Below, in pieces: positions 15,846-43,717 of a stretch of DNA of 64,000 nucleotides. Both the position numbers and the translations under genes were made by a program. The DNA is from Methanomassiliicoccaceae archaeon DOK (GTDB lineage Archaea; Thermoplasmatota; Thermoplasmata; Methanomassiliicoccales; Methanomethylophilaceae). The notes under the pieces were generated by a model. That model was not told where the DNA came from, made no database searches, and saw only the letters and a program-made list of their open reading frames with translations. The stretch is from assembly GCA_009911715.1 (NCBI GenBank), contig CP047880.1, forward strand, positions 496,001 through 560,000, read 5' to 3'. How positions within the stretch are numbered: the stretch's first letter is position 1; every line of letters begins with the position of its first letter.

Positions 15846-17225
15846 TCATCCGGTCAGGGGTCCCGTGTCGATCGGATTGTGCATCCTGAATATGCCCTTC
15901 CTTGCGCCGACGCACAGTATCGCGGCGGAGAACGCTGCCGAGCCCACCGATGCTGCAACCATCGACCACCAGATGCCGTCCAAACCGAACGCCGACATCG
16001 GAACCAGGAATGCCGTCGGCACGATCAGCTGGGACATCACGCCTATGGACAGCGCGTGTGCGGGCAGATCTGCGGCGGCAAGAGTCTGGTTGACGTTCAC
16101 GGCGACCCATGACAGCAGGTAAGTCAGGGCGAATATCTGGAGTCCCGCGACTGCCATGTCCGCGACCTCTGGGCTGCCGTCGCCCAGGAAGAGTCTCGTG
16201 AGTGGTCCGTCTCCCAGGATGCACATCGCCGCCACAGCGATTCCCATGACCGCCGACGCCACCGACATGACCGTGAACAGGGATCTCACCCTGTGCCCGT
16301 CCCCGGATCCGTGGTTGTAGCTTATGGCGGGCTGCATTGCCGCGTTCATGCCGGTGAACAGCGAGAAGACCACGGAGTTGACGTACATGATTATCCCGTA
16401 TGCCGCGACACCGTCGTTCCCTGCCACCGACAGGAGGACGGCGTTGGCAATGATCCCGAACAGGGAGCCGGACACGCTGTTGAAGAACGTGGACGTCCCG
16501 TTGTAGAGGACCCTCCTGGTCGTGTCCGCGTCCATCCATCCGCCCACGAACCTGAGGACGAACCTCCTGCGGAGGAAGGGGATCAGGGCCACGATGGAGC
16601 CCAGGGCGACGCTGAAGCTGGTGGCGAAGGCGCTGGCCCAGGTCCCGCAGCCGAGCCACCCGATCAGGACGGCCAGCAGCGCGACGTTCAGGACCGCGAC
16701 CCCGACGTTGATCCACATGCTGAGGTTCACGGCTCCGCAGATCCTCAGGTAGTTGTCCGTGGCGAAGAACAGCAGACCCACCGGTGCGAAGAGGGAGAAC
16801 ACCGCTATGTACTGAGCGGCCATGTCCGCGACCTCGCCCTCGGCACCCATGAAGGTTACGATGGGGCCACCGAGGAAGACGCCTATCAGCAGGAATCCCA
16901 CCGATATCGCCACGATGAGCTTCACGGATCCGGTGAACACCCTCCTGGCCATGTCAGTGTCCCCGTTGCCCAGGTGCATCGAGATCCTCACGGACGATCC
17001 CGCCGCCACCATGTCGGAGACCGCCATGAACACGGTCATGATGGGCCATGCCAGGTTGACGGCGGCGAGGGCGTCGCTCCCGAGGTAGTTCCCGACGAAG
17101 ATCCCGTCCATGATGGAGCAGAACGCCCACACGAGTCCCGATATCATCCCCGGTATCGAGCACTTCAAGAAGAGGCGCCAGACAGGCATCCGGCCGTACA
17201 TCTCGTGCTCCGCATCGGATGTCAT
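15846..17225 (-). CDS. MATE-family efflux transporter
   Basis: The 459-residue protein has twelve hydrophobic helices in two homologous halves. The first repeat begins WRLFLKCSIPGMISGLVWAF...DGIFVGNYLGSDALAAVNL and a second-half counterpart includes GMNAAMQPAISYNHGSGD, both MATE hallmarks. These Na+- or H+-coupled antiporters export cationic drugs and metabolites. The ATG overlaps the stop of the upstream marR as ATGA, so the pair is a classic regulator-pump operon under the operator at 17642-17670. Confidence 0.92.
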   Translation of the reverse strand: MTSDAEHEMYGRMPVWRLFLKCSIPGMISGLVWAFCSIMDGIFVGNYLGSDALAAVNLAWPIMTVFMAVSDMVAAGSSVRISMHLGNGDTDMARRVFTGSVKLIVAISVGFLLIGVFLGGPIVTFMGAEGEVADMAAQYIAVFSLFAPVGLLFFATDNYLRICGAVNLSMWINVGVAVLNVALLAVLIGWLGCGTWASAFATSFSVALGSIVALIPFLRRRFVLRFVGGWMDADTTRRVLYNGTSTFFNSVSGSLFGIIANAVLLSVAGNDGVAAYGIIMYVNSVVFSLFTGMNAAMQPAISYNHGSGDGHRVRSLFTVMSVASAVMGIAVAAMCILGDGPLTRLFLGDGSPEVADMAVAGLQIFALTYLLSWVAVNVNQTLAAADLPAHALSIGVMSQLIVPTAFLVPMSAFGLDGIWWSMVAASVGSAAFSAAILCVGARKGIFRMHNPIDTGPLTG

Positions 17226-17638
17226 CTGGAGATCTCCTCCGTCAGGATCCTCAGGGCGCGGCACACGGCGCCAACCCCGTCCGGTCCCAGTTCCTCGCGG
17301 ATCCTGTCGATTGCGCGGTCGTACGGCTCGTCGTACCTGTTGTAGAGCTCCTCCATGTCGGGGCTGAGTCCCAGCAATGTGACCCTGCCGTCCCCGTCGT
17401 CCTTCCGCTTGACGACCAGGCCCTCCCTCACGAGGGACTCCACCTTGCGGGACACGGTGGACTTGTCGAGGTCCAGCATATCGGACAGCTTCCCGACGGT
17501 GCAGCGGTCTGTGTATCTAATCAGGTTCAGGTAGATGAGCGACTGGTAGCCTATGTCCTTCGGACTGTCCCTGTAGAAGGAGAGGTCGTCCATCAGCATC
17601 GCGGCCAGACAGCGCTCCATCTCGGATTGGAGCTCCAT
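17222..17638 (-). CDS. MarR-family transcriptional regulator
   Basis: The 138-residue winged-helix protein shows CTVGKLSDMLDLDKSTVSRKVESLVREGLVVKRK and the wing DDGDGRVTLLGLSPDM, the MarR DNA-binding core. ATG 17638 (MELQSEMERC) sits directly beside a palindrome that overlaps the promoter, indicating autoregulation. It is first in an operon with the MATE pump, so it probably represses both until a ligand binds. A longer upstream frame runs through the operator and is not used. Confidence 0.9.
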   Translation of the reverse strand: MELQSEMERCLAAMLMDDLSFYRDSPKDIGYQSLIYLNLIRYTDRCTVGKLSDMLDLDKSTVSRKVESLVREGLVVKRKDDGDGRVTLLGLSPDMEELYNRYDEPYDRAIDRIREELGPDGVGAVCRALRILTEEISR

Positions 17639-17641
17639 AAT

Positions 17642-17670
17642 TGGTTGAATAAATACAACTATTTCAACCA
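17642..17670 (-). promoter_or_regulatory. Operator palindrome of the marR-MATE operon
   Basis: A perfect inverted repeat, TGGTTGAA and TTCAACCA with a 13-base AT-rich spacer, begins 4 bases upstream of the marR ATG. Arm length, spacing and overlap with the core promoter fit a MarR dimer site. Confidence 0.65.
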
Positions 17671-17732
17671 GACGGGTCGTCCGTCGGCGGTGCCGTAGAA
17701 ATCGGTTAGTACACCATCGCGATACAGACGGC

Positions 17733-18101
17733 ATGGACATGAGTCCCGTGGTCCCGTTCGTGGCTGTCGCCGTGGGCGGAGCCCTGGGCGCCCTCTCCAG
17801 GTTCTGCGTCTACCGCACGGTGGAGACGGCGTTCCCCTGGGCGACGTTCATAGTGAACATCGTCGGGTGCTGCCTGGCGTCGTTCCTGATGTTCAGGTAC
17901 GGGATATATGCCGACGGGCCGGTCAAGACCATGGTGTTCACCGGGTTCTTCGGAGCGTTCACGACAATGTCCACGTTCTCCATCGACACAGTCAACCTGC
18001 TCGAAGGCGGCCAGTACTGGCAGGCGGGCGGGAACATCGTCCTCAACTCCGTCGTGTGCGTCCTCGGCGCGATCGGCGGAAGGTACCTGGCGACGATGTG
18101 A
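17733..18101 (+). CDS. crcB: Fluoride channel FluC/CrcB
   Basis: This small four-helix membrane protein forms dual-topology dimers that expel fluoride. The 122 residues contain GGALGALSRFCVYR, WATFIVNIVGC (the pore Asn) and GFFGAFTTMSTFSIDT (the phenylalanine/threonine track), then a C-terminal helix. It is a single-copy channel. The upstream sequence does not resemble the fluoride riboswitch. ATG 17733 or 17739 could initiate. Confidence 0.93.
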   Translation: MDMSPVVPFVAVAVGGALGALSRFCVYRTVETAFPWATFIVNIVGCCLASFLMFRYGIYADGPVKTMVFTGFFGAFTTMSTFSIDTVNLLEGGQYWQAGGNIVLNSVVCVLGAIGGRYLATM

Positions 18102-42517: not shown

Positions 42518-42704
42518 TGTTGGAACGTCGAGGAAGTATTTAAAGAATCGTTTCGACATTCGATAGCGTTAGTGCAATCTATATTGCCATATTCAAAGCA
42601 GGAACCATCCTTCTCGATTTTAGCAACAGGCATAATCTCGGTGTTATGCGACGCCTAGGGTCTAAGACGATATTGGAATATACATCCAATACATACATGC
42701 CCGC

Positions 42705-43289
42705 ATGGAGCTTGCCGCGGAGCGTCATGATGTCGTATGTCCTATGAACGAGTCCGATGTCATGGAGTATATTCTGTAGAAGGAAGGCGTCCTGCGCGTG
42801 GAGCCGCTGGATCGGCGGACCGTGGGACGTCTGGTCGAGGCAGAGGAGTCCATCACACGGGTCTCTGGGGGGATGAGGCTGGAGAACAGGGGCATGACGG
42901 ACTGTGCCGGGATGGAACGGAACTTCGTGATGTTCTGCGACGCATCGTTCCCCAGGCCGGACGAGGTGACGATGGAGATGGTGGACGATAGGGGCGTCGT
43001 GATCGGTCATGACGTGCCGCCGTGCATGAGGCAGGATTTCGCCGCTCGCGACGACATCATCTGGATGGCTGACGGGTTCGTGTTGTATCCGAGGCGTGTG
43101 GGCGAACACGACGTCCGGATGGTCATGCTCTCCAGCCGCTTCGATGTCCCGGAGCCTCTGGTCTCGAGGATCTTCTATCCGTCGCTGACCACCGCCCGCA
43201 TGCTGAATGGGATGTTCGGCGTCGAGTGCGAGGGGCTGGCCTCCGTGGTGATCGGTGTGAACGGTCTTGATGCGGTTCAGTTCCTGTGA
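42705..43289 (+). CDS. Unknown protein with in-frame TAG (possible pyrrolysine)
   Basis: From ATG 42705 the frame reads 24 sense codons, TAG at 42777-42779, then 169 more codons to TGA. Sequence on both sides of the TAG reads like protein (ESDVMEYIL before, KEGVLRVEPLDRRT after). A TATA-like GGAATATAC at 42674-42682 places the transcript start at ATG 42705. GTG 42798 is an alternative start that avoids the TAG. The 194-codon product is soluble, acidic and unrecognised. Its 3' end overlaps nikR by 13 bases. If TAG is read as pyrrolysine it would be Pyl25; otherwise this is a shorter gene or a pseudogene. Confidence 0.55.
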
Positions 43290-43717
43290 CCGATGTGGTG
43301 GAGGTTCCCTGACGAGGGGGCGGCCATAGTCAGCCTTCCCCTGAGGACGCCCTTGACGGACGTGATCTCGTTGGCGAACTTCTTGAGGTCCCCGAGTCTG
43401 CCCTCGCAGATCAGGATCTCCATGCATTTGTCGTGGTCCAGATGGATGTGGACGGACGTGTTGACCAGTGACTGGTGGTCGTGCTGCATGTCCGTAAGCT
43501 TGTCCCCGACGGAGCTCATGGTGTGGTCGTAGACCATGACCACGGTGCCGACCATCCATTCGTCCTCGTTCTTCCACTCGTTCTCGGCCAGGGAGTCGCG
43601 CACGAGGTCGCGTATCGCCTCGGATCTGCTTACATAGCCCTTCTTGGAAATCGATTCGTCGAATGCCTTCAGGAGCTCCGGTTCCAGGGATACTCCTATG
43701 CGTGTCACTCCGTCCAT
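43277..43717 (-). CDS. nikR: Nickel-responsive regulator NikR
   Basis: The 146-residue protein has an N-terminal ribbon-helix-helix (VTRIGVSLEPELLKAFDESI...YVSRSEAIRDLVRD) and a C-terminal ACT-like nickel domain with HDHQSLVNTSVHIHLDHDKCMEIL, including the His/His/Cys ligands of the square-planar Ni site. NikR represses nickel uptake when Ni is sufficient. Nickel is needed for hydrogenases and F430, in line with the hyp genes in this window. An inverted repeat upstream may be its own operator. Confidence 0.95.
   Translation of the reverse strand: MDGVTRIGVSLEPELLKAFDESISKKGYVSRSEAIRDLVRDSLAENEWKNEDEWMVGTVVMVYDHTMSSVGDKLTDMQHDHQSLVNTSVHIHLDHDKCMEILICEGRLGDLKKFANEITSVKGVLRGRLTMAAPSSGNLHHIGHRN

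Follow-up and report, generated by a model that had tools for sequence, protein, structure and literature searches.

A predicted pyrrolysine codon at a variable site of a Thermoplasmata-family gene convergent with nikR

The window analysed here, a stretch of 64,000 nucleotides, corresponds to bases 496001-560000 of a single-contig genome (1,889,135 bases, 99.79% complete) from a methane-producing archaeon of the order Methanomassiliicoccales (Methanomethylophilaceae-like). An intact frame on the plus strand of the window runs from ATG 42705 to TGA 43287-43289 and contains a single TAG at 42777-42779, codon 25, its translation comprising 24 codons, the TAG, 169 codons and the TGA. The features of the locus are as follows:

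42668..42689, plus strand: TATA-type promoter-like element, conserved (near-identical in the closest orthologue, L068, and similar in L074)
42705..43289, plus strand: predicted gene, function not assigned; 194 residues if the TAG is read, stop codon TGA
42705..42776, plus strand: codons 1-24, a variable N-terminal segment of equal length in L068 and L074, with helix 16-24 of the structure model at its end
42777..42779, plus strand: TAG in frame at codon 25, predicted to encode pyrrolysine, where the closest orthologue has TCG (Ser)
42798..42800, plus strand: GTG, codon 32, the first possible downstream start, use of which would drop a nearly invariant Gly28
43277..43717, minus strand: nikR (NikR_C and ribbon-helix-helix domains; Pfam), a convergent neighbour that overlaps gene 42705-43289

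The AT-rich element at 42668-42689 upstream of the ATG, CGATATTGGAATATACATCCAA, is present as a single copy within the window, and its distance to the ATG is identical in L068, with a less exact copy in L074. A transcript directed by this element would probably start at or near ATG 42705, i.e. be leaderless. Without read-through, the longest ORF in the standard ORF list is one of 163 residues from GTG 42798, and zero possible start codons lie between TAG 42777 and Gly28. In the preliminary description, the frame had been judged sensible on both sides of the TAG, a TATA box had been seen pointing to the upstream ATG and GTG 42798 had been placed 31 codons past that ATG; all of this was borne out, with homologous coding sequence on either side of the TAG, a real AT-rich element whose spacing recurs in L068, and the GTG at codon 32. 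The 24 codons before the TAG are nevertheless weak evidence when taken alone, since 17% of open intergenic windows reach the same codon score and conservation relative to L068 is poor.

Family matches were found in 144 of the 147 genomes of the order, the nearest named relatives by this gene being assemblies of Candidatus Methanomethylophilaceae and Methanomassiliicoccales. L068 can be aligned gap-free over 194 codons, from ATG to the same TGA, which together with the breadth of the family places the open frame beyond chance. Convergent nikR accompanies the family gene in 24 of 30 loci (window locus counted), and this conserved arrangement marks the orthologues of the window gene. Codon 25 of L068 is TCG, suggesting that the TAG was gained by a single C-to-A change, and L074 likewise has 24 codons followed by a serine in this column. 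Of 24 aligned homologues, 22 reach the codon-25 column, which is defined by the alignment, including for L007 and L023, and all 22 show a sense codon there (S 7, G 4, A 3, R 2, E 2, K 2, T 1, V 1). Those examined closely run approximately 11 to 24 residues upstream of the TAG column; a start of the homologues at GTG 42798, which the preliminary description had named as an observation against its own reading, is thus not what they show. A catalytic pyrrolysine site, with the TAG conserved across orthologues, was considered and rejected, as 0 of the 22 other homologues have TAG in the column.

Constraint on the gene differs along its length. Codons 1-24 share 6 of 24 residues with L068 and give a dN/dS of 0.76, so the N-terminal piece appears free to vary, while codons 26-194 give a dN/dS of 0.245. 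Thirteen columns reach 90% conservation or more in the other 24 sequences; the window protein retains every one of them, and its divergence from the other homologues is not above that of L007, two results that argue against a dead gene. The structure model (mean pLDDT 88; eight sequences), in which lysine stands in for pyrrolysine, places residue 25 right after helix 16-24 and ahead of strand 29-35; this position and the variable column fit a site that tolerates replacement. Searches of Pfam and NCBIfam returned zero families for the window protein, and 25 homologues gave nothing better than a weak match to DUF6165, in two members. Sequence searches found neither a solved relative nor a phage relative. 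Fold comparisons, in which a nitroreductase-like flavoprotein fold was considered, were middling and too weak for a fold to be assigned, the top VIA-align rows being flavin nitroreductase-type proteins with Z at most 7.0 and the best Foldseek E-value for the window protein model being 0.086.

The genome holds pylS, pylB, pylC and pylD, whose absence the preliminary description had set against its own reading. All four are above the NCBIfam cut-offs (270 bits against a cut-off of 178 for PylS), with PylB, PylC and PylD coming after PylS. A 69-nt stretch just before pylS can be folded into a cloverleaf whose anticodon loop carries CTA; it was called by neither ARAGORN nor Rfam. Genes for MtbB, MttB and two MtmB (Pfam) in the pyl stretch have one in-frame TAG each. 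The pylB gene (L036:16610-17665) itself terminates with TAG; read-through would extend its product by approximately 24 residues, with an overlap into the start of pylC, and might provide feedback on the pyrrolysine genes.

Usage of TAG was assessed in a sample of 464,000 of the 1,889,135 bases, consisting of the window and twenty 20-kb stretches, two of which were picked for the pyl region. Under the standard code, the 365 well-scored ORFs of this sample stop at TGA (329), TAA (28) or TAG (8). Five of the eight TAG-ended ORFs continue as coding sequence, namely four methyltransferases and a prismane/hybrid-cluster protein; the other three are pylB, a carbonic-anhydrase-like gene and a gene with the TAG almost directly before a TGA. 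This make-up leaves approximately 3 apparently real TAG terminators in 365 ORFs, in agreement with the earlier impression that the organism avoids TAG as a stop. A coding score on both sides was obtained for 25 of 4485 in-frame TAGs and for 4 of 2666 in-frame TAAs; the count is weak evidence, as the four methyltransferases and a degree of antisense noise are included in it. Two other genes encode candidate pyrrolysine proteins: the prismane/hybrid-cluster protein (L053:1881-3458, minus strand), with a Pfam domain covering 500 residues across a mid-domain TAG, and a GNAT acetyltransferase (L055:11552-12106, plus strand), with a TAG at codon 58, within the Pfam domain. A TPP-enzyme domain in L044 probably also spans a TAG. 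At window positions 17222-17983 on the minus strand, a 57-codon coding-like stretch ends at TAG 17812 and is followed by a non-coding score before a MarR-like domain; this TAG may be a real terminator.

Internal stops were also found in other genes of the family. Among the family matches listed, a TAG was flagged in seven genomes; it lies truly within the family gene in six (G000, G083, G091, G075, G038 and G088) and precedes the gene start in G090. All six genomes with an internal TAG have pylS, which is weak evidence by itself since pylS is present in 92 of the 147 genomes of the order. In L014 and L017 (from G083 and G091), a common TAG follows codon 115 of the match, elsewhere than codon 25, and the dN/dS between the two is 0.040 over the 115 codons before the TAG and 0.059 over the 63 codons after it. 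Such low values on both sides provide the best indication that the family has its TAG codons translated. Each TGA among the listed order-wide matches is terminal, lies before the start or, in L063, stands at a frame break. One family member with an internal TAA, L059 (G094:C64), is located near a contig end and may be a pseudogene or the product of faulty assembly.

The family is represented by three copies in this genome: the window copy beside nikR, a copy (L037:7690-8229; G000:C1:1282690-1283229) convergent with the cobalt chelatase gene cbiK and approximately 12 kb from pylS, and a copy (L107:4526-5086; G000:C1:1408526-1409086) 1.9 kb from mcrA. Two copies thus flank metal genes, and cbiK adjoins a family gene in five loci (L075-L079, own counted). 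In a class sample of 150 genomes searched, in which family and mcrA positions were compared by eye, 19 of 21 mcrA-bearing genomes have a family copy no more than 6 kb from mcrA, so that this family, without a Pfam or NCBIfam name, merits attention. Strict co-occurrence of the family with mcrA was ruled out, 19 of the 40 family-positive genomes of the class sample being without an mcrA match. A listed family member is on the pylS contig in 32 of the 92 pylS-positive genomes and within 30 kb of pylS in all 32. In G009, the copy linked to pylS is the mcr-linked copy, so the linkage between family and pylS may reflect nothing more than the closeness of mcr, cbiK and pyl to one another. This neighbourhood allows the guess that the family functions close to methanogenesis or its metal cofactors.

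Pyrrolysine outside the methylamine methyltransferases, as the preliminary description had proposed for this gene, is supported by the pyl genes and the homologues. It is very probable, as judged from sequence, that a TCG was converted to TAG at a tolerant site in a functional gene of this Thermoplasmata family and that the TAG is now decoded as pyrrolysine. One C to A change in this species would have turned the serine codon TCG into TAG; the transcript starting near ATG 42705 would be translated, with tRNA-Pyl (CUA), charged by PylS, inserting pyrrolysine at codon 25, and the majority or a part of the ribosomes would pass the TAG to reach TGA 43287 and yield a protein of 194 residues. The effect would be to make the full-length protein dependent on the pyrrolysine system. 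Termination at codon 25 may compete with decoding, since TAG still terminates a few genes (pylB, the carbonic-anhydrase-like gene and the TAG-TGA tandem). Pyrrolysine at this position is probably an incidental, tolerated replacement that serves no chemical purpose in itself. It is very unlikely that read-through of codon 25 instead gauges the state of the pyrrolysine system and that the repeated gain of TAG in the family was selected rather than incidental; if so, scarcity of methylamines and of charged tRNA-Pyl would lead to a stop at codon 25, and the level of this protein, with its paralogues next to mcrA and cbiK, would track methylamine methanogenesis.

Other readings of the TAG were weighed against decoding as pyrrolysine. 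Termination at the TAG, with a shortened protein beginning at GTG 42798, would agree with the purine-rich AAGGAAGG upstream of the GTG, with the 163-residue ORF of the standard list and with the poor conservation of the part before the TAG. Such a protein would however lack Gly28, which is nearly invariant, and a portion of strand 29-35, the homologues reach further upstream, and the promoter and ATG conserved in L068 favour the upstream start, making this reading very unlikely.

Since the codon-25 TAG was seen in one genome only, it could also stem from a recent mutation or a sequencing error. A recent nonsense mutation in a gene that is dead or dying would be in keeping with a TAG limited to one species and one base away from TCG, in an organism with two more paralogues. 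The comparison with L068 nevertheless shows zero other stops or indels and the dN/dS of 0.245 after the TAG, all 13 conserved columns are kept with divergence not above that of L007, and with the pyl genes present a TAG need not kill a gene; decay of the gene is therefore highly improbable. An error of one base in sequencing or assembly has in its favour that each species is represented by one genome and that a single base decides; it is more improbable still, given that the genome is a single contig of the completeness stated above and that the family has independent TAGs at other sites, evidence that codons of this kind exist. Decoding of codon 25 as pyrrolysine would add one more well-supported protein containing this residue solely because the host reads TAG, and would illustrate a route of gain, in which a TCG becomes TAG where replacement is tolerated. 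Truncation of such genes by standard gene callers is to be expected.

In the methyltransferases MtmB, MtbB and MttB, the TAG is conserved and catalytic. The window gene shares with these the same TAG-reading machinery, their genes being in the same genome, and differs from them in that its column is variable and the site lies where the first helix ends. A report from 2025 reportedly describes archaea in which every TAG is read as pyrrolysine. For this order, the pyl genes and a low use of TAG as a stop are described in the parts consulted of PMC3941956. In the portions consulted of the reports on 'Ca. Methanomethylophilus alvus' and ISO4-H5, 16 pyrrolysine proteins beyond the methyltransferases are predicted in M. 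alvus, along with 1.6% TAG terminators and the argument that a newly arisen in-frame TAG would be stable in that organism (Borrel et al. 2014, PMC4153887), and the ISO4-H5 genome is given 46 amber-containing genes, mentioning 17 hypothetical proteins without giving their sequences (PMC5011839). No entry of the M. alvus table as consulted could be recognised as belonging to the family of the window gene (PMC4153887). As far as these sources were consulted, the M. alvus and ISO4-H5 proteins resemble the window gene in belonging to the same order, with pyl genes, TAG in ordinary families and rare TAG terminators, and many of them likewise have TAG-less homologues. In-frame TAG genes outside the methyltransferases having thus already been reported for the order in the parts of PMC4153887 and PMC5011839 consulted, the phenomenon is not new, and the window gene is a further case of the TAG reading that is ordinary for this lineage, an expected habit that involves no new mechanism.
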